From a virus, in IMG/VR virus record IMGVR_UViG_3300017967_000300, positions 1 to 20,065 of that record: a stretch of 20,065 nucleotides of DNA; one strand, given 5' to 3'. The notes beneath the pieces were generated by a model, which was not told the origin of the DNA, made no database searches, and saw only the letters and a program-made list of their open reading frames with translations. Below, piece by piece: positions 3,242 through 17,011 of this stretch (position 1 is the first letter of the stretch; each line of letters opens with the position of its first letter). Position numbers and translations under genes: made by a program.

Positions 3242-6200
3242 TTATCCTAATGCTATAACTAGAGGTGTTACTGTATTTAACAGACTTTGACTGAATGCTC
3301 TACCAGAAATTGTGCCTGTAAGTTGATTAATTGAAACATCAGGTCCAATCTTGAAGTCACCTGATTGATTTGTTCCTGTAAATATAATTCTTCCTCCATT
3401 CTGCATTACAAATTCATTATCTACGATTGCAACTCCACCAATTCCTGGTCTTGCAGTATTAATGTCTGTTCCACTTCCTACCCATTCCAAAGAAATGGTT
3501 GTTGCAAGTTGCAGACTTGTTCTTGAAAAATAAACTGTGTCTCCAGAAGTTACATTATTATTTAGATTCTGTACTAGAACCACCGTACTTACACCAGCAG
3601 AAGGTGCAGTTGCACTCTCAATACCATAATAAATTGGATACATTACAGTGGTAAATGATAAACCATTTCCACCATTTTGTGTAATAGTTATATTTGGTGC
3701 TGTAGATGAATATTGAGATCCTCCATTAACTACATCTATAGAAGTAACAGTTCCTGTGGAATTGACATTGGCAGATAGTTCTGCAGTAATTCCATTTGGA
3801 CCTGTTGGATCAGCAACTACAAATGTTGGAGGATTTGCAGGATTATATCCAGAACCACCATTGGTAACTTCTATTTTTTGAATTTCGTAATATAAAGTAT
3901 CAAAGTAAATTGCTTGTCCATCATAAGGTCTATTATCCCCAATCCCAGAAATTACAATAGTATCTGCATTATCGCCATCAGCACTAACATCATTTACAAC
4001 TTCTCCAGTATAACGATAGATTGATCTGGAATATTCATCACCGACGCCATTACTAACAAGTCCCTTGTTACCGAAAGAACAGTTAGAGTTTGTGATGTCA
4101 CACTGACCACCACCAGAAGACCAATGTCCAATGTCATTACAAATAGTAAAGATAGAAACTAACTGAGCATATGCACCATTAGTTATTGATACTCCAATTC
4201 CATTTTGATTATATTGTGTATAAGAATCAACTGACATTGATCCCGTCACACCAATATCATTTTCATCCCCAGGTTCTGCATGGAATCCATCAATCTTCAT
4301 TCCAATACTCTTTCCAATGAAGTTGGTGCAGTTTCTTATGTAAGGTCCTTGAGATATTACACCAACGCCAGGAGAGAATGTATTTCCACCAATCTTTGTA
4401 TCTGAGTAAGCATTACTTGCTTGACCATCAGTACCTGAAGGTTGTGTTTCTGGAATCCCAGCAGAAGCATATCCACTGTTCATTATATTTGTAATGATAC
4501 CTTTACAAGTATCAATTGCTGATTTTACATTTGAACAAGATCCAATATCAGAATTGGATCCAGTAACAGAATCTGCCTGCATGGACAAATCTTTGACCTG
4601 ATAATAAGTTGATTGATTATTACCAGTCCATGTAACGTTGTTAATGCAAGAATATGCAATGTCTCTGCTGTAATTTAATGCAGATGTTACATCTGTTTTG
4701 CCGATAGCAGTAACATCTGCATTATTATCATAAAATTCTGATCCAATACCAACACACTTAGAATTACCTCCACGAGTAATATCATGGCAGATTGCTCTGT
4801 ATGATCTCTTGATCAGTTCTGCAAGTTTTACTTTATTTGTAGGACTTAGACTTTCATTTGCTGCTGCTTCATATCCAATAAAATCAAGATTCATACGAAT
4901 CATTCTTGCTCCATCAAAGAAACGATCAGAAGAAACCCCAGCAAGAGGTTGGAATGCAACAATTGCCGCACCACCAGTGGATTCTGATCCAACAAAACTT
5001 AAATCAGTAACATGGCATCCATTATTGACATGGAATAAATCAGATCCTGAATTTTGTGGTGTAACAATACAGTTTCTGAGTTCAGTTCCTTCTACGGCAA
5101 CCTTTTCTTTAATGATGATTGGATTATTTTCTACATAAACACCTGGGAATACTTTTACAGTATCACCAGTACTTGCAATTCCTGCAGCATTTTTAATTGT
5201 TCTCTTTGGATGATTCTCACTCAATCCAGTGTTAGAATCGTCACCATTTTGTGCAACATATATGGTTTTCCCAGTTGGTTTGTATGAAGTGACTGTAACT
5301 TTTCCCTTTCCTCCAACAGGATCAAGATCAATACCAATACCAGGAACTATTTGAGTAACAATTCCAACAAGATTTACACCATCACCATAATATGAATCTG
5401 CAGTTGCAATACCACTAACAGTTAGAGTAACATTATTACCATCAACTGTTGCAATTGCAGATGTACCAACTCCAAGACTACCTGATGAAGGTATGAATAC
5501 TAATTTTTCTGAGGCAACATTTATCGAACTTATCCCTAATGTGGGATCTGTAATTGTAACTGTAGATAAACCAACATAAATTAATTGATCAAGTTGATTG
5601 TCATCAGAAATTAATATGTCTGCACCATCACCTTTAATTCCTTGAACACCTTGTGTTCCCTGAAGACCTTGAATACCTTGTGTTCCCTGTAGACCTTGAA
5701 GACCTTGAAGTCCTTGAACACCTTGAAGTCCTTGAACACCTTGAGTTCCCTGAAGGCCTTGAGTCCCCTGAAGTCCTTGAACACCTTGAGTTCCCTGAGC
5801 ACCTTGAGTTCCTTGAGCACCAAGACCTTGAGTTCCCTGAAGACCCTGTATACCTTGTAGACCTTGAATTCCCTGAGCACCTTGAGTTCCTTGAGCACCA
5901 AGACCTTGAGTACCTTGAAGACCTTGAAGACCTTGAGTTCCTTGAAGACCTTGAGCACCTTGAGTTCCTTGGAAATTACTCAATACTCCCTGTATTCCTT
6001 GACCACCTTGTGTTCCTTGGAAATTACTTAATACTCCTTGAACACCTTGAAGACCTTGAAGTCCTTGAACACCTTGAATTCCCTGAAGACCTTGAGTTCC
6101 TTGAAGACCTTGAGGTCCTTGAGTTCCTTGAGTACCTTGAGTTCCCTGTAAACCTTGAGGTCCTTGAGTTCCTTGAACACCCTGATCACCTTGGAGTCCT

Positions 6201-7084
6201 TGAGTACCTTGAAAATTACTTAATGCCCCCTGAACACCTCTTTGACCCTGTAGACCTTGAATACCTTGACCACCCTGTAGACCTTGAGTTCCCTGTAGAC
6301 CTTGAATACCTTGAATTCCTTGAGCACCTTGTGTTCCCTGAAGACCTTGAATACCTTGTGTTCCCTGATGACCCTGTGGTCCTTGAATCCCTTGATTTCC
6401 CTGAAGACCTTGAGTACCTTGAGTACCTTGGAAATTACTTAAAGAACCTTGAACACCCTGACGACCTTGCGTCCCTTGTAAACCTTGTGTTCCTTGTAAA
6501 CCTTGTGTTCCTTGATTTCCTTGTAAACCCTGCGTTCCTTGAGCACCTTGAGTTCCTTGGAAATTACTTAATACTCCTTGAGAACCTTGAAGACCTTGCA
6601 GTCCTTGTAATCCTTGATTTCCCTGTAGACCTTGAATTCCCTGTAGACCTTGAGTTCCCTGATTACTTAATCCTTGTAATCCTTGTAAACCTTGAGTTCC
6701 TTGGAAATTTGCAATATTTCCTTGAAGACCCTGAAGACCTTGAGTACCTTGAAGTCCTTGAGCACCTTGAGTTCCTTGTGCTCCCTGAGTACCCTGAAAG
6801 TTACTTAATGCCCCTTGAATACCAGTCTCACCTTGAGGACCAGGTTCACCAACACCCTGAGTACCTTGAAGACCTTGTACTCCCTGAGTACCCTGAAAGT
6901 TACTTAATGCACCTTGAATACCTTGCAGTCCTCCACCAGAACCAGTTCCAGTACCAAATTTTTCTCCGGTCTCTCCTACTATGGCGTCACCATAAATGAC
7001 AACACCATCCCAAAAAGTGGTCTTTTCGTTAAAATATGTTTCTTTTCCGAAAGATTGTATCTTATTAGGATCTAATTCTGACAT
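3242..7084 (-). CDS. Long tail-fibre-like protein: collagen-like stalk plus right-handed beta-helix (1280 aa)
   Basis: The head at residues 1-52 (contains '[17 protein letters not shown]') resembles fibre N-termini of marine T4-like phages. Residues about 53-481 are Gly-X-Gln collagen-like triplets, almost free of proline, broken at intervals by an 'LSNF' element. Residues about 490-600 are a beta-rich neck containing '[11 protein letters not shown]'. From about 606 ('[17 protein letters not shown]', then '[14 protein letters not shown]') the protein looks like a pectin-lyase-type right-handed beta-helix (DUF1565-like) up to about 1020. A module with two GSGY/GSQY motifs lies at about 1070-1145. 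The last 40 residues ('[13 protein letters not shown]', 'GTISGRAF', '[13 protein letters not shown]') match a C-terminal motif recurrent in cyanophage structural proteins. A late-promoter octamer lies about 34 nt upstream. It is probably a trimeric host-contact fibre; glycan binding or cleavage is possible, but no catalytic residues are obvious. Confidence 0.88.
5640..6930 (-). repeat. Collagen-like coding repeat tract of the 1280-residue fibre
   Basis: About 1.3 kb of degenerate 9- and 18-nt units encode Gly-X-Gln triplets (X mostly Leu, Thr, Ile, Val, Ala). The tract is interrupted eight times by a G-x-[LI]-[SA]-N-F-Q-G-T-Q-G element and once by the shorter GLSNQG. The periodic DNA keeps several shadow frames open on both strands. 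Confidence 0.95.
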
Positions 7085-10286: not shown

Positions 10287-11605
10287 TTCTTTTTGTAACC
10301 GAAACTATCTCTTACTAATCTTAATGAAGTATAAGATTGTGTTGAATCAAAATGATGACATAATTCCTTTATCATATATAGTCCACTTGTCTCAACATCA
10401 TATTCTTTTTCTTTTGAAGAACTTGCTCTGGGAAAATTGCACTTTATCAAATCACCAGCATTTAAATTTGTATTCAATGGAACCAACATTTCAAGTTGTT
10501 GGGTTAACATCGTATTATATCTCATTAATGATTGAGATTGATACTTTGCCATATCTCCATTTTGATCTATAGAAACATCCTTTTCCATGGTTCCATAATC
10601 AAGAACTTGAGTAATTAGTCTTGTAGGTACATCTCCTAGTGTTTTATCTGACCCATTTCCCAACTTTGGCAGTTTCATTCTATCGCCAAGGTTTTCAGTT
10701 TTTGATATGTAATCACTTTGTTTGAAAACTCCTTGCTCTGGGGATGTGAAAGAAAAATCTACAGGATTAAAAAACATTCTTTGAGTGGAGTAAGTTCCCA
10801 ATCTTAACTTTTCAAGTAAAGCAGAATTTCTTATGATTTTATAACTTAAAATTTTAAAATCATTATCAACTTTTTTCCCCGAAGAATCGAAGGACTCATT
10901 CTTTTCACTATAAGTATATGTCGCTTTTTCTTTTTGTTTATTTAATTCGTCGATTGATCTAAATTGAAATCCTTCTTTAGTTTGGTAAAATAAGAATCCT
11001 GCCGTAGCATTTTTAGATTCTGATGGAACACCCTTTCCTGCCAATGATGTTAAAATCGTAAAAGGTTTTCTCATGTTTCCAATAAAACCATATCTATTGG
11101 ATGTTTTATCAATTTTACCTATTTTTGTAGTTTGTAAAGTTTCTTTTAGTATTTTTTCAACAGAGGTATTGATTGGTGATGATATTGGATATTTTCCAAC
11201 AACTCTAGTGGTTTCATTAGTAATTGCTTCTCTAGAAACTAAATGTAAAGTAAATTCTTCACTGTCTTGTTTAGCATCAACATCACTAATAGATGAAACA
11301 TAAAAATAATCTTCTGAATTTTTTGAAAAGTCTAAATCACTATTTCGTGTCGTATTTGCATTTACTCTAAGTGATAATCTTTCTCCCCCTCTAAGAGGTA
11401 AACCATTATAAATCGATTGCATTACTCCATTTTTTTCAATACTATCTCCAGTATTAAGTACCCTAAGTTTAGCAGTAATTACTGGAGAAAATATATCCTC
11501 AAAGTACTGAAACATCACTATACCAAATGATATATCAACTGTACGTGATAAATCATTCGATTCTAAAATTGCTTCACCGTAGATAGACTTGTTAGATGCT
11601 TCCAT
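10283..11605 (-). CDS. 27: gp27-like baseplate hub protein (440 aa)
   Basis: The length is close to T4 gp27 (391 aa), and the gene precedes the gp5-like gene with a 4-nt overlap, as expected for subunits that form a gp27-gp5 hub complex. The N-terminus ('TVDISFGIVMFQYFEDIFSP', 'ITAKLRVLNTGDS', 'LPLRGGERLSLRV') fits the first tube-like barrel of hub proteins. The C-terminal part ('VPLNTNLNAGDLIKCNFPR', then 'SGLYMIKELCHHF') has the 'L.AGD.I.C..P ... SGLY.I....H.F' pattern of the gp27/gpD/VgrG hub family. The start codon A is shared with the TAA stop of the upstream lysin-hub gene. The identification is from recalled family patterns and context, so it is good but not certain. Confidence 0.7.
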   Translation of the reverse strand: MEASNKSIYGEAILESNDLSRTVDISFGIVMFQYFEDIFSPVITAKLRVLNTGDSIEKNGVMQSIYNGLPLRGGERLSLRVNANTTRNSDLDFSKNSEDYFYVSSISDVDAKQDSEEFTLHLVSREAITNETTRVVGKYPISSPINTSVEKILKETLQTTKIGKIDKTSNRYGFIGNMRKPFTILTSLAGKGVPSESKNATAGFLFYQTKEGFQFRSIDELNKQKEKATYTYSEKNESFDSSGKKVDNDFKILSYKIIRNSALLEKLRLGTYSTQRMFFNPVDFSFTSPEQGVFKQSDYISKTENLGDRMKLPKLGNGSDKTLGDVPTRLITQVLDYGTMEKDVSIDQNGDMAKYQSQSLMRYNTMLTQQLEMLVPLNTNLNAGDLIKCNFPRASSSKEKEYDVETSGLYMIKELCHHFDSTQSYTSLRLVRDSFGYKKK

Positions 11606-13515
11606 TAGACGTAGTTAAGTGCTAAGAGTATTCTATTCTTCGTAAAAGTATTTAACATATAAGAAGGGTCTGTATATGATATTGTTGTCTCAGTAGACGA
11701 TTGAATTGGAGCAGATATTGATTGATTACCAGCACCATTATTTGCCACAAGAAATATATTTTGATTTCCCTCCTCTTCTGGTGCAAATGCCATTGTTTGT
11801 GAAGTATTTAAATTTATATTTGAAGATATATTGGGAGAAACTTTTTTCGCTTCTTCCAAATAACTTTTATATCTATTTCCACCATATACACTCCATGCAT
11901 CGAATCCTTGCCTATCATATACCATTTTCGCCGCCTTTACGTTCGTTAAGGGATCATAAAGTTTATCAACACTATCAATCCCAAACCAACCAAATCTTTC
12001 TTGTCTATAAGGACCAGTCATATTGATTTGCCACAATCCATATGATGTCTCTCCGATTTGCTTATATAATCCAGATTTAATTGTATCATTTCTAGGATCA
12101 CCACCAGATTCTGCCATTGCAATTGCTGCCATCTTGATCGCTTGATCATCATTAAATCCTACAGATTTTGCTAACTGTATTAGTTGTGCTAAGTTATATC
12201 TTCCTGAAGATGGTAAAACTGAAGTTTGTGGTCTAGTATGTGATGTTCTAATGTTAGTATTATTATTAGTATTAGTATTAGTATTATTAGTATTAGATGT
12301 GGTTTGTGTAGATTTAGTTGCCTTTACATTGCCACCCTTTACAATCAGTCCAGCGTCAACTAATCCCATAGGATCCATTGTTCCAGAAACCATAGAAGAT
12401 GCAGAATCATATCCTGATGCATGATCTATGTGTAAATGTGGTGCAGTCGATAGACCAGTACTTCCACTAAAACCTACAACTTTTGCATTACCATCAGATC
12501 CCGTACCTGCACCAACTTTATCACCTTTCTTAACACTAATTGACTTCATGTGTGCGAATTTAACAAAGGTTCCATCTTCCAATTGAATTACAACAAAATT
12601 ACCATAACCACCATTTGTTCCATCAGGATCTCTAGAATCTCCCATTATTCCAACATCAACAACTGTTCCGTTAGAAACTAAAGTTATTGGTGTTCCTTCA
12701 GGTAATGGGAAGTCTTCACCAGTGTGTCCCTTCTCTCCACCTTTACCATGAACTCTAGTTTTTCCTCTAGTACCCATACCACCAGGTATATACTGACCAT
12801 AATCCCTATTTGCAGGATCTAATTTTTCTCCACCGGTCGATGTGTATGTTGATTCTTCTCCAGTAGATGGTTCTTCTCCCTGGGATTCATTTTGAATTTC
12901 ATCATCTCTTTGTCCAATAAGAATACTAAATGTTTCTTTCAAATCTTCTTGTATATCATTAAATGATTTTGTCAGTTCATCAGTTGCCGCTTTAACTTTT
13001 CCAGACATATCAAGAAAATCAAAATTTGAAAAATTTTCTTTATATGCTGTTAATACTCTACCAAAATCTCCAAACGCAATGAAAATTTTATTTGGCATTT
13101 CTTTCAATATTTCATGAATTTTATTAACTCTACCCATAAATTTTTCACCTAAGTCATTCATCATTGGTAGGTTGTTTATTAACCATCCAACACTAACCCA
13201 ACCTATGAATCCCAAAATCCTCTCAATAAAATTTCCTCCAGCAGTTGATAAAACTTTAGATCCTGGAATCATTGATGAAGTTCTTACATTTTTTGCTTCC
13301 AATACAGATTCTCTAACTGCTCTTTCAGACTGCTCTTTTCTTCTATTTTCAAGAAGCGAAGTTCTTTTTTCTATCCTACTTCGTTCTTTTGTACCATCTC
13401 TTATAATTCTAGAAATTGATTCTATATTTTTTTTTGTCTCAGAAGACTTTTCTCTGATACTAAAAATATTTTTCGAAATATTGGTAATACTAGAATTTTG
13501 GGATAATCTTGCCAT
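11605..13515 (-). CDS. Baseplate hub/tail protein with M23 metallopeptidase and lytic-transglycosylase domains (636 aa)
   Basis: Three parts are visible. Residues 1-205 are a basic coiled-coil region with a hydrophobic helix ('GFIGWVSVGWLINN', about 102-115). Residues about 245-390 are an M23/LytM-type endopeptidase: H264 and D268 in 'GHTGEDFPLPEGTPI', H322 in 'KFAHM', and H360 and H362 in 'APHLHID', so the zinc ligands and catalytic histidines are all present. Residues about 438-560 are a goose-lysozyme/SLT-like transglycosylase, with candidate catalytic Glu469 in 'AIAMAESGGDPRN', 'SYGLWQIN' (491-498) and 'WSVYGGNRY'. An Asn/Thr-rich linker (about 403-423) joins the enzymes. The protein could cleave both peptide and glycan bonds of peptidoglycan during DNA injection. 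It starts 1 nt after the tape-measure candidate and shares its last base with the gp27-like gene. A virion-borne lysin is preferred to a lysis enzyme because it sits in the hub operon and has no export signal. Confidence 0.85.
   Translation of the reverse strand: MARLSQNSSITNISKNIFSIREKSSETKKNIESISRIIRDGTKERSRIEKRTSLLENRRKEQSERAVRESVLEAKNVRTSSMIPGSKVLSTAGGNFIERILGFIGWVSVGWLINNLPMMNDLGEKFMGRVNKIHEILKEMPNKIFIAFGDFGRVLTAYKENFSNFDFLDMSGKVKAATDELTKSFNDIQEDLKETFSILIGQRDDEIQNESQGEEPSTGEESTYTSTGGEKLDPANRDYGQYIPGGMGTRGKTRVHGKGGEKGHTGEDFPLPEGTPITLVSNGTVVDVGIMGDSRDPDGTNGGYGNFVVIQLEDGTFVKFAHMKSISVKKGDKVGAGTGSDGNAKVVGFSGSTGLSTAPHLHIDHASGYDSASSMVSGTMDPMGLVDAGLIVKGGNVKATKSTQTTSNTNNTNTNTNNNTNIRTSHTRPQTSVLPSSGRYNLAQLIQLAKSVGFNDDQAIKMAAIAMAESGGDPRNDTIKSGLYKQIGETSYGLWQINMTGPYRQERFGWFGIDSVDKLYDPLTNVKAAKMVYDRQGFDAWSVYGGNRYKSYLEEAKKVSPNISSNINLNTSQTMAFAPEEEGNQNIFLVANNGAGNQSISAPIQSSTETTISYTDPSYMLNTFTKNRILLALNYV
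12253..12296 (-). repeat. Trinucleotide repeat coding the Asn/Thr linker
   Basis: A run of ATT and AGT triplets (AAT and ACT on the coding strand) encodes the Asn/Thr linker between the metallopeptidase and transglycosylase domains. Being in triplets, length changes would keep the frame. Confidence 0.85.
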
Positions 13516-13516
13516 C

Positions 13517-15316
13517 TTACACTACATTAAAAATTTGTTTTGAATATAATGTATAAAAATTTTCAGGATTTGAGGTGTTGATATGAGGAACATCGGTGAT
13601 TGATTTTTCTGGTACTGAAACTGCAGGGGAAGCAGGTCCAGATGTTCCTCCAGATGTATTCAATGGAATAATTTGTGGTGGTCGCTTATTTTTAACTGGT
13701 AAAGTTTTTGGTTCTTTTAAGGGAATCAAATTTTGAGAATCTGCAGTTATTGGAGATTCACCTTCCTTTTGCAATGCAATGTTTAGAAGAGCATCTTCTC
13801 TATCTAAAGTTGCCTTCATAGAACGATCTACATCAGTATTTTTTCTATTATTTGCATAATCAGGATTTATAATATTCGTTTGAGGTACATATTTTGGTGG
13901 TGGTTCTTCCTCAGCACTCTCTTTTGGTTCAACCTTTGATGATGTATTTAAAATATTATTCTGTGGTTCGACAGAAATTTCTGGATCTATTGGCTCAGTA
14001 TCTCCAAATTTTTTTCTCTCAAAAAAGTTTAAAAAATTTCTTTCAGTTTGATTCGCAATTCGTTCAGTTTCGCTTTGAGGTTCAGCATTTGCAGGTTGAG
14101 ATGACGTAGGTTCAACATTTGTAGATTGAGATGATGTAGGTTCAACATTTGTAGATTGAGATGATGTAGATTCAACATTTGTCTCAGTCTGCAATGATGT
14201 ATTATTTGTATTTGCTTCTACCCCAGGTTTTGATTCATTATTCAATGCAGGTGTATTGAATTTTGTACTTTGTGGTTGAATATTTGAATTGGGTTCAGAT
14301 TGAGACTGAGTATTTGATCCTGTAAGAAATTCATTAACGGCTTTCATAAAGTCATCTACAATACTCTTCCCCTTCTCATCTTCATCTATAAGACCTTTAC
14401 CAAATAGATCCAAGAGTTGTTCACTTGAGAATATAACTCCAGCAACTCTTGCAAGTCTTCCGACTGGCAATATTGAAAGTACACCAAGACTTGCCTCAAT
14501 CATATTATTATCTTTGGCCTCAAGTATGGATGATATTGCAGTAAGTGCTGTTCCAAAAAATCCAAATCCTTTTGGACCCTTTACACTCGGAGTCCTTCTG
14601 CTAGTGGCAGCGGCACCAGACAACAAATTTCTAACAGATTGGAATGGTTTTTTAATTAATAAATCGCCAGCAAATTTAGATAATCCAGTAATACCACTAA
14701 CTATTTGTCCTAATCCACCTTTAAATAAAAGAAGGACATTGGTCGCGTTTCTAATACCATTGAGTATTGTAGACTGTATTTCATTAGCTAAATCTATATT
14801 TCCATCTGCTCTCGCACGAATCAATTGTCCATAATTATTAAGTAACCATCCACTAAACAAGAACAATAATGACTTTGCTATTCTATCAAATAAACCCGTA
14901 GTTCTTCTTGCAACAGGAGTCACAGCAGAAGTAAATGCTCTGTTTATTTTCTGCTCTACTACCTTTTCTTTTCCTTCTCTTATATTTGCTTCTGCAAGTC
15001 TTCTTTCTCTATTTTGCTTATCTGCTAATATTCTTTGCTCATTTGCAATATCATTTTGAAGTAATGTAGATACACCAACAAGTCCAGCATTTAGTGCAGC
15101 AATATCTTGTCTAACTTGAACTAACCCAGTTTGAAGACCCAACAAACTTTGCTGATTTTGTTGAGTAATTTGAAGTGTTTGTATATCCGCTTCACTTACA
15201 ACTGGTTGAGACCTAATAGTTTGAACTAAAGGATTCACATTTCTAGCACTAATACTACCAGAGTTACTGATCCTTGATCTTGTAGATTGTCCTAGAATTG
15301 GTGAATTAGGTGCCAT
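13517..15316 (-). CDS. Putative tail tape-measure/hub protein, gp29-like (599 aa)
   Basis: The length is close to T4 gp29, the 590-residue tape measure. The order gp54, gp26, gp51-like, this gene resembles the tube, chaperones, tape-measure order of many long-tailed phages. A Gln-rich N-terminus is followed by a charged coiled coil (about 85-128), a hydrophobic helix ending in 'FLFSGWLLNNYGQ' (about 148-164), and several Gly/Ala-rich hydrophobic helices (about 190-305). A Pro/Ser/Thr/Asn/Gln-rich low-complexity stretch (about 333-420) includes 10-residue repeats. The helix motif 'GWLLNN' recurs as 'GWLINN' in the next protein. The start codon at 15316 overlaps the end of the gp51-like frame by 11 nt. 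No direct sequence similarity to T4 gp29 is claimed; the call rests on length, helix content and position. An alternative is a minor hub protein. Confidence 0.6.
   Translation of the reverse strand: MAPNSPILGQSTRSRISNSGSISARNVNPLVQTIRSQPVVSEADIQTLQITQQNQQSLLGLQTGLVQVRQDIAALNAGLVGVSTLLQNDIANEQRILADKQNRERRLAEANIREGKEKVVEQKINRAFTSAVTPVARRTTGLFDRIAKSLLFLFSGWLLNNYGQLIRARADGNIDLANEIQSTILNGIRNATNVLLLFKGGLGQIVSGITGLSKFAGDLLIKKPFQSVRNLLSGAAATSRRTPSVKGPKGFGFFGTALTAISSILEAKDNNMIEASLGVLSILPVGRLARVAGVIFSSEQLLDLFGKGLIDEDEKGKSIVDDFMKAVNEFLTGSNTQSQSEPNSNIQPQSTKFNTPALNNESKPGVEANTNNTSLQTETNVESTSSQSTNVEPTSSQSTNVEPTSSQPANAEPQSETERIANQTERNFLNFFERKKFGDTEPIDPEISVEPQNNILNTSSKVEPKESAEEEPPPKYVPQTNIINPDYANNRKNTDVDRSMKATLDREDALLNIALQKEGESPITADSQNLIPLKEPKTLPVKNKRPPQIIPLNTSGGTSGPASPAVSVPEKSITDVPHINTSNPENFYTLYSKQIFNVV
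14071..14182 (-). repeat. 30-nt tandem repeat in the tape-measure candidate
   Basis: Two identical 30-nt units (14101-14160, apart from one base) are flanked by a degenerate copy (14071-14100) and a partial copy (14161-14182). They encode the 10-residue unit TSSQSTNVEP within a disordered linker. Confidence 0.85.
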
Positions 15317-15479
15317 TACCGTTCTTTAGGTTTTCTTCTTCGATGTATTGCTGGAGGAGAGTTATATAAACTTCTCTCTCCCATGGTATCATATTTTCTA
15401 ACTCTGTTAATGAATATTTATGATGCTGAATCAAAGCAAAATTCATTTTATAATATGATATAAGATTCTCATGCATCAT
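15306..15479 (-). CDS. 51: gp51-like small baseplate-hub assembly protein (57 aa), possibly made by frameshift from gp26
   Basis: The frame begins MMHENLISYYKMNFAL and contains 'HHKYSLTELENMIPWERE', then 'VYITLLQQYIEEENLKN'. I recall similar short proteins after gp26 in T4-like cyanophages, called gp51 or hypothetical. The ATG at 15479 lies 2 nt after the gp26 TAG, without a Shine-Dalgarno sequence. The same frame is open upstream through CGC CTA GGC back to a TGA at 15521, so a -1 slip in the last codons of gp26 would enter it. The start ATG falls inside a predicted stem, which might hinder independent initiation. The end overlaps the tape-measure candidate by 11 nt. A role as the T part of a G/GT-type chaperone is an inference. 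Confidence 0.7.
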   Translation of the reverse strand: MMHENLISYYKMNFALIQHHKYSLTELENMIPWEREVYITLLQQYIEEENLKNGNGT

Positions 15480-15494
15480 GCCTAGGCGAAAAAA
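15420..15494 (-). other. Candidate -1 programmed ribosomal frameshift signal joining gp26 to the gp51-like frame
   Basis: Read on the minus strand, the gp26 codons TCT TTT TTC contain the heptamer T TTT TTC (15494-15488). It is followed by 8 nt (GCCTAGGC, including the gp26 TAG) and then a stem. ATGATGC (15479-15473) pairs with GCATCAT (15426-15420), and after a bulge GAATC (15468-15464) pairs with GATTC (15432-15428). A small inner hairpin TTATA/TATAA is possible in the loop. A -1 slip would read CGC CTA GGC ATG and give a 297-residue fusion. P2 E/E' uses a similar T-rich heptamer and lambda G/GT has the same layout. Confidence 0.65.
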
Positions 15495-16198
15495 GAGTTT
15501 AGTCCCTCCATGACAATCTCACTATCAACACCAGTATTTGGATTAGTAACTTTTAAGACGTGTTTTAATTTTGGCATAGTCTCAAAAAATTGTTCAATTT
15601 GTTTAAATTGCTTTGAACTCAGAGATTCTACGAACTCCACTAATTCTTTTTTAGTGCAGTCCTTAGCACTCCATGCTTCCTCTTCATTGTAAACTTGCTC
15701 AATGCAAGTGCAGATGACTTTAAATGTATCATCAACTGTCACATCACCACCCGTGAAATTGTTTGTAATAAACTCATTCATAGATGGATATCTCATTCTC
15801 ACACTTAAATTATCATCGAGTTGAATGTCTCTAGTGTGGTTCTCTCCCACTTCAACTTTAATATCATCTAAATTAATGCTCATAGGAACTTGAGTCTTAT
15901 TATCATCTGGACATGTAATTAATACATCCACAGACTCTCCTACAGACTTTCCTCTAATATTTAAAAATAGATACTCAATATCAAAAGTCGCTAAACTATC
16001 GATTTTAATACCCCGTGTAATAATACAGTTTGATATAACATCCTTAACTGCATTTGCAATTTGTTTTGGATCTTCACTCTCTAAAGCGATAATTAAAATT
16101 TTCTCTTCTTTTACTAAAAAAGGTCTATATTTAATTTTCTTTTTTAATGAAGGAATTTCCAACTCATATGTTGGTGTAGATACTTTTGGTAAAGGCAT
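15482..16198 (-). CDS. 26: Baseplate hub subunit/assembly chaperone gp26 (238 aa)
   Basis: Family features of T4 gp26 (T4_baseplate family; T4 protein 208 aa) are seen: the N-terminal 'TYELEIPSLKKKIKYRPFL' with 'VKEEKILIIALES', a central 'SVRMRYPSMNEF' strand, a helical C-terminal half ('LVEFVESLSSKQFKQIEQF', then 'FETMPKLKH') and the end 'EGLNSFFA'. The acidic character and helical C-terminus suit an assembly protein. The last sense codons, TCT TTT TTC GCC, contain a -1 slippery heptamer just before the TAG stop, with a predicted stem-loop downstream. The gene starts 27 nt after gp54, and the gap carries a late-promoter-like octamer. In T4, gp26 acts in the pathway that builds the central hub around gp27-gp5 and gp29. 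Confidence 0.82.
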   Translation of the reverse strand: MPLPKVSTPTYELEIPSLKKKIKYRPFLVKEEKILIIALESEDPKQIANAVKDVISNCIITRGIKIDSLATFDIEYLFLNIRGKSVGESVDVLITCPDDNKTQVPMSINLDDIKVEVGENHTRDIQLDDNLSVRMRYPSMNEFITNNFTGGDVTVDDTFKVICTCIEQVYNEEEAWSAKDCTKKELVEFVESLSSKQFKQIEQFFETMPKLKHVLKVTNPNTGVDSEIVMEGLNSFFA

Positions 16199-16218: not shown

Positions 16219-16226
16219 TATTTAGT
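16219..16226 (-). promoter_or_regulatory. Weak late-promoter-like octamer before gp26
   Basis: ACTAAATA on the minus strand matches 6 of 8 bases of TATAAATA. It begins at the last base of the gp54 stop codon and ends 20 nt before the gp26 ATG, so the leader would be short. Confidence 0.3.
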
Positions 16227-17011
16227 TACGCTATATCAGAGTTTGCAGCATTTATAATTGTCTGTCCTCCATTGGCATTTACCGCATCTAATCCCTTTGT
16301 ATTTTTTTCGAGAGGTGGTCTATTTAAAATATTATCTTCTTGTGTTCTTTGCTGCTTCTTATTTCCTAATCCAGATTGATTATTTTCAGAAATTCCTTTG
16401 AAAAGATCAAAACTCCATGTTCTGCCAGCAATGTAGCGATCATATTCAAATGTTGCAGCAACTTTCAATACATCAGATCCAGCATAACTTACAGGAATTG
16501 ATGATATTGATTGCGGAAACATTCCTCTAAATGTATATTCAATCTCTCTCTTATAATCTCTATCAAACTTAACAATTTTAGTTTCTGTGGATTTATAAGA
16601 ATCTGGATATTGCATCTTGATATAGTAATCTTTTGCAAGTTTATTATTTTTATCCTGATTATCTCCACCACTAGAAATAAAGTCCATCCAATGTTCTAAA
16701 ACTTTTATGGTTTCATATCTCCTATCAACATAAAATTCCATAGTAATATTATTATACATTCTTGTATGTGCAATCTTTTCACGGATTCCTTGCTGTGGTG
16801 TCAATTCGGAGGTTGCAAATGCAGAAGTAGGAAGATTTGCAGAAAAGCAAAGCAAACCAAAATCACTGACACAGTAAAAAGGGGAAACACCTTTCCAAAA
16901 CAGATAGTTTACTACAGGTCCTGGAATTTGAAATTTTACTTCGTAATGGGAAGATTGTGCAAGATTTCCAAATAATCTTTTTGCAGTTTCTGGTTTTATT
17001 GGAAATGCCAC
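16226..17011 (-). CDS. 54: Baseplate tail-tube initiator gp54 (261 aa, GTG start)
   Basis: The protein has the tail-tube-type order of T4 gp54: an N-terminal 'LAQSSHYEVKFQIPGPV', then 'LLCFSANLPTSAFATSELT' (the 'F.A...LP...F.T.E' strand-loop), 'NNITMEFYVDRRYETIKVL' followed by 'EHWMDFISS', 'YYIKMQYPDSY', and 'YTFRGMFPQSISSIPVSY' before a final strand ending 'YDRYIAG'. This is the tube-like fold on which the first tube ring assembles. The start is GTG at 17011; an in-frame TAG lies 9 nt upstream, so no longer start is possible, and no ATG occurs in the first 20 codons. It is the first gene of the minus-strand series and diverges from gp4 across 43 nt. A low-complexity tail rich in Asn/Gln/Lys follows the fold. 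gp48 has a related fold, but gp48 is better matched by the 333-residue plus-strand protein. Confidence 0.75.
   Translation of the reverse strand: MAFPIKPETAKRLFGNLAQSSHYEVKFQIPGPVVNYLFWKGVSPFYCVSDFGLLCFSANLPTSAFATSELTPQQGIREKIAHTRMYNNITMEFYVDRRYETIKVLEHWMDFISSGGDNQDKNNKLAKDYYIKMQYPDSYKSTETKIVKFDRDYKREIEYTFRGMFPQSISSIPVSYAGSDVLKVAATFEYDRYIAGRTWSFDLFKGISENNQSGLGNKKQQRTQEDNILNRPPLEKNTKGLDAVNANGGQTIINAANSDIA

Follow-up and report, generated by a model that had tools for sequence, protein, structure and literature searches.

The window, by which we mean the whole 20,065-nt stretch of viral DNA analysed here (IMG/VR record IMGVR_UViG_3300017967_000300, positions 1-20,065), carries on its minus strand a gp26 gene and, next to its 3' end, a small open frame of 57 codons in the -1 register relative to gp26 (Table 1). 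The 3' end of gp26 reads AAC TCT TTT TTC GCC TAG. The T TTT TTC heptamer that a preliminary description had placed in the gp26 frame is indeed present at 15494-15488, in phase for tandem -1 slippage; its distance from the TAG is 3 nt (GCC), not 5 nt as given there. The 8-nt spacer that follows was correctly described, and the sequence also bears out that the -1 frame runs open through the gp26 stop and is continuous with the 57-codon frame, being open from 34 nt 5' of the TAG. After a -1 slip, translation would continue as CGC CTA GGC ATG ATG CAT GAG..., giving ...NSFF-RLGMMHENL..., to a stop that ends at 15306. The predicted fusion is 297 aa and 34.3 kDa, compared with 27.1 kDa for gp26 alone, as computed from sequence. 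The junction peptides predicted for this phage are VTNPNTGVDSEIVMEGLNSFFR in the -1 frame, ending ...SFFR, and VTNPNTGVDSEIVMEGLNSFFA in the 0 frame, with the C-terminus ...SFFA. No other in-phase T TTT TTY occurs at any of the 5485 codon positions of the window's 13 main genes, which makes a chance placement 3 nt from this stop unlikely.

Table 1. Features of the predicted frameshift locus and its neighbours in the window
Feature	Positions	Strand	Basis or remark
Tail-tube-type protein, gp54/gp19-like, upstream neighbour	16226..17011	-	PF23849 E 6.4e-13; phrog_45 tail tube E 9.4e-36
gp26 / TAC-N, short tail assembly chaperone (putative)	15482..16198	-	238 codons/aa; PF12322 and phrog_150 matches
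GGAGG, internal Shine-Dalgarno-like element	15505..15509	-	exactly 10 nt 5' of heptamer
Slippery heptamer T TTT TTC, in phase	15488..15494	-	3 nt (GCC) 5' of TAG
gp26 TAG stop, bypassed on a -1 shift	15482..15484	-	read from sequence
-1 segment, TAC-C of predicted fusion	15306..15488	-	first codon CGC at 15488; phrog_634 and gp51 C-terminus matches
Hairpin 5' arm (ATGATGCA)	15472..15479	-	8-nt spacer after heptamer; conserved pairing in relatives
Hairpin 3' arm (TATATCAT)	15455..15462	-	7/8 pairs kept in window
599-aa ORF, downstream neighbour, tape-measure candidate	13517..15316	-	position only

The gp26 protein matches PF12322 (T4_baseplate, E 7.9e-75) and phrog_150 (E 1e-79), and the small frame matches phrog_634 (E 2.4e-25); in the annotations of relatives, the -1 segment appears as a separate 'gp51'. 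When the gp26 model (pLDDT 86) was compared using VIA, the top match was the HK97 TAC 2OB9 (Z 8.0, rmsd 4.1 over 84 residues), followed by 3FGX (Z 7.6), YqbN 3KLU (Z 7.2) and 5IR0 (Z 4.8), values that are middling by VIA's own note and a match that is limited to residues 1-88. Unrelated rows reached at most 3.9, the best outside phage and satellite proteins having Z 3.9. We take YqbN, 3FGX and 5IR0, the last from a Vibrio cholerae PICI-like element, to group with the tail chaperones. This moderate match suggests that gp26 has a TAC fold in its first 88 residues. Foldseek found no match to the gp26 and gp51 models in the PDB at E 0.001, a PDB sequence search with gp26 gave no credible match, and VIA offered no chaperone among its candidates for the gp51 model, a result that excludes nothing. 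Profile comparison (hhalign) with lambda G and T returned nothing (probability about 0.1%). Sequence homology to lambda G/T is not a defining feature, such chaperones diverging beyond sequence recognition, and G/T-type ORFs have low sequence similarity among themselves (PMC5009743).

The 599-aa tape-measure candidate had no Pfam or PHROG match, and its profile comparison with T4 gp29 was negative. In Caulobacter phage Cr30, the gene at 3622-5310 of locus L085, separated by a single additional small ORF, carries the annotation tail tape measure protein. Between the tape-measure candidate and a phrog_350 tail gene, the window encodes a 636-aa protein with M23 peptidase and SLT lysozyme-like domains (11605-13515, minus strand). 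Two long minus-strand ORFs (3-2894 and 3242-7084) carry collagen-like QGTQGLQG repeats and probably encode fibre-type proteins; the repeats yield long spurious antisense ORFs, for example 5653-6999 on the plus strand.

Relatives were drawn from IMG/VR and from annotated phages, giving 208 distinct junctions. Related sequences do not count as independent events, for which reason single representatives of clusters were analysed too; the chance figures below are naive with respect to phylogeny. The preliminary description had suggested aligning such junctions to see if the heptamer and the -1 register recur, and they do: TTTTTTC or TTTTTTT is in phase in 206/208, the -1 frame extends at least 40 codons past the stop in all 205 complete cases, and the +1 frame does so in none. 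The codon 5' of Phe-Phe ends in T in 206/206, though it may encode Ser, Asp, Ala, Asn, Thr or Gly. The second Phe codon is TTC in 181/206, the background for TTC over the rest of the genes being 29%. When each 60%-identity cluster is represented by a single sequence (n=32), the T-ending codon is found in 32/32 and TTC in 22/32, against a background of 41%. Along gp26 in the close clade, both Phe codons are invariant at synonymous sites (1.0 vs a mean of 0.57). In 70 of the 206 relatives the -1 frame has no start codon (ATG, GTG or TTG) among its first 14 codons, which rules out independent initiation as the general route. Together with the conserved T-run and the open -1 frames, never +1, this points to frameshifting as the conserved route.

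The heptamer pattern also occurs in Cr30, Synechococcus phage S-CRM01, Pseudomonas phages pf16 and Astolliot, Stenotrophomonas YB07, Aeromonas Aeh1, Rhizobium IG49, and Vibrio phages K571 and TCU-VP04-AIR2. A scan of viral contigs with the K571 gp26 as query gave no match. The two junctions without a T-run belong to Vibrio phages D493 and 1.244. In both, the small frame is still -1 and its ATG overlaps the gp26 stop (TAATG); coupled initiation may have replaced frameshifting there. At one locus (L272) and others similar to it, gp26 extends about 8 codons beyond the heptamer before its stop, and the small frame is again -1.

An element upstream of the heptamer, not mentioned in the preliminary description, appears from codon choice to be a further stimulator. 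The Glu codon at the GGAGG site is GAG in 105/148 relatives against a background of 27%, and xTG before and GGR after it are likewise over-used, spelling GGAGG. With representatives at 80, 70, 60 and 50% identity, the nominal Fisher p for the GAG excess is 5e-15, 8e-6, 1e-5 and 0.009. Within the close clade, the Glu, Gly and Leu codons upstream of the heptamer are not unusually conserved at synonymous sites, and the Shine-Dalgarno claim therefore rests on the codon preference of the wider set, where the element seems favoured beyond codon usage. Shine-Dalgarno-like sequences stimulate -1 frameshifting at a spacing of 9-14 nt, 10 in dnaX (PMC5009743), a range that includes the spacing found here. 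The same GGAGG lies 25 nt 5' of the small-frame ATG, too distant for initiation and at the right distance for the heptamer.

Downstream of the heptamer, an 8-bp hairpin is conserved in 44 relatives, with 92.3% of cells paired and three pairs showing changes on both sides. Its covariation is 0.148, compared with 0.052 for shuffled alignments and no more than 0.042 when the register is slid. Two other clades carry different hairpins at roughly this position, and these too show paired changes. The hairpin of the window itself is weak, about -2.5 kcal/mol vs -9.0 for the clade consensus, and none was found in some relatives (L022, L041, L043, L065 and syn9), so it is not essential everywhere. It also covers the ATG at 15479. 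The preliminary description had instead put forward a two-part stem of 7 and 5 bp. This stem does lie within the lowest-energy fold of 15420-15502; that fold, however, scores no better than its shuffled versions (z 0.01), and the 7-bp arm is fully paired in 1/48 close relatives. We accordingly rejected the two-part stem as stimulator in favour of the nearer hairpin. An extension of the latter to 11 pairs was also rejected, its outer pairs being poorly kept and columns 15/41 being unpaired in 27/44.

Comparison with T4 relates the two frames to known proteins. T4 gp26 (208 aa) and gp51 (249 aa) are encoded on opposite strands and both match PF12322 at full length, and only gp51 has in addition a match to phrog_634, to which the small frame belongs. 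The alignment of the predicted fusions with gp51 continues through the junction, and a profile of the -1 segments aligns with gp51 residues 208-245, its C-terminal end (E 3e-6). T4 gp51 thus combines a full gp26-type domain with the small domain, and T4 gp26 is its short paralogue. Since gp51 carries both domains and gp26 one, T4 has two genes for the pair of forms that this phage would produce from a single gene. In seven loci of the T4 type, those in which gp26 turned up next to gp51, Phe-Phe is kept as GAR TTC TTT with no slippery run, suggesting that elsewhere the run is kept for slipping and not for the amino acids.

We have observed the layout, the register, the conservation of the signals, the homology of both domains to a single contiguous protein of T4 and the resemblance to a chaperone fold, and we infer from these that frameshifting occurs: ribosomes are very probably programmed to slip -1 near the end of gp26. 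We put at about 0.92 the probability that gp26 is the short TAC-N and the small frame the TAC-C of a long form made by this slip. The preliminary description had proposed the fusion as a T4-like counterpart of lambda G/GT, and the comparative, structural and T4-paralogue evidence agree with it. The efficiency of the shift and its part in assembly can be pictured by inference. The majority of ribosomes would terminate at the TAG (15484-15482) and yield gp26; a minority would slip one base back on T TTT TTC and produce the 297-aa gp26-gp51 fusion (TAC-NC). Both the GGAGG 10 nt upstream, through pairing with the 16S rRNA anti-Shine-Dalgarno, and the hairpin 8 nt beyond the heptamer would probably promote the slip. 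On the model of lambda G/GT, the tape-measure protein would be covered by an excess of short chaperones with a few long ones, whose C-terminal domain would bring in tube subunits; neither form would remain in the completed tail.

Public annotators list a distinct gp51 gene, and the small frame could accordingly be a separate 57-aa protein whose translation begins at the ATG at 15479, through coupling or reinitiation once ribosomes have reached the stop of gp26. The window does have ATG ATG at this position, 2 nt past the TAG, 120/206 relatives have an ATG among codons 1-14 of the -1 frame, and coupling may operate in the D493/1.244 lineage, with its TAATG overlaps and no heptamer. Against this stand the 70/206 relatives with no start codon there, a GGAGG too far from the ATG and at a distance that fits the heptamer, and the presence of both domains in one chain in T4 gp51. 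A separate protein would also leave the in-phase heptamer unexplained. For this phage we consider it improbable. The long form might alternatively come from slippage of RNA polymerase, not of the ribosome, on the run of six or seven T, transcriptional slippage being a known route to alternative frames (PMC5009743). The run is, however, shorter than the nine A or T quoted for bacteria (PMC5009743), and 206 of 206 runs keep a tandem-slip phase that polymerase would not need. The putative GGAGG and hairpin elements are, moreover, of the kind that stimulates ribosomes, and we regard a transcriptional origin as very improbable.

The predicted frameshift can be set beside several known systems. The T4-like gp26/gp51 chaperones belong to the same protein family and have the same short and long forms as here; in T4 each form has its own gene, whereas in this phage both are predicted to come from one. 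Lambda gpG/gpGT has a different heptamer and no detectable sequence similarity. P2 E/E+E' shares with this locus a T-run heptamer, a tail chaperone role and a contractile-tailed phage; the P2 heptamer ends in G and that of this phage in C. The E. coli dnaX gene has the same three parts, a Shine-Dalgarno-like element 10 nt upstream, a heptamer and a downstream hairpin (PMC5009743), but its heptamer is an A-run, the gene is unrelated and the shift yields a shorter product. In phage Adele (Pakpunavirus/Vandenendeviridae), a conserved -1 shift likewise links TAC-N to TAC-C, at a T-run close to where TAC-N ends; the motif is GTTTTT and the phage family another (PMC12846349).

The three parts also invite a wider reading, toward which we lean slightly: a cassette in marine T4-like phages that sets a short-to-long ratio tuned by selection, with a hairpin that differs between clades yet keeps its pairing, and that the T4 branch would have dropped at gene duplication. 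Predicted one-gene frameshifting here contrasts with gene duplication in T4, the slippery run being lost once unneeded.

The abstract of the 2022 paper by Vladimirov and colleagues is said to name T4 genes 26 and 51 and to describe frameshifting as conserved in several T4-like groups. A 2016 review holds low-level G-T frameshifting to be widespread in long-tailed phages and names T4 as the exception (PMC5009743). According to the passages that cite them, Vladimirov, Gautam and Davidson (2022) found that some T4-like phages have one short and one long gene and no frameshifting (PMC10274946), and it is to their paper (Virology 566:9-15) that poly-T signals for a -1 shift in T4-like TAC-N genes are credited (PMC12846349). 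The preliminary description knew of no account of this for marine T4-like phages; by these citing passages, T4-like chaperones and the frameshifting in them had already appeared in print in 2022 (PMC10274946, PMC12846349), and the idea itself is therefore not new. The GGAGG element and the covarying hairpins may be additional to that description. Our literature search found no paper combining cyanophage, ribosome profiling and baseplate.

The locus offers a predicted frameshift cassette that is compact and open to testing, in a marine phage group of high abundance. What annotators call 'gp51' in cyanophages is most likely a longer chaperone's C-terminal domain and not a gene standing by itself. 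As it stands, public annotation of the small frame is inconsistent: it is shortened in syn9 (L084) and missing in Aeh1 (L091), and in Vibrio phage D493 (L089) the annotated small gene begins more than 100 nt past the gp26 stop.
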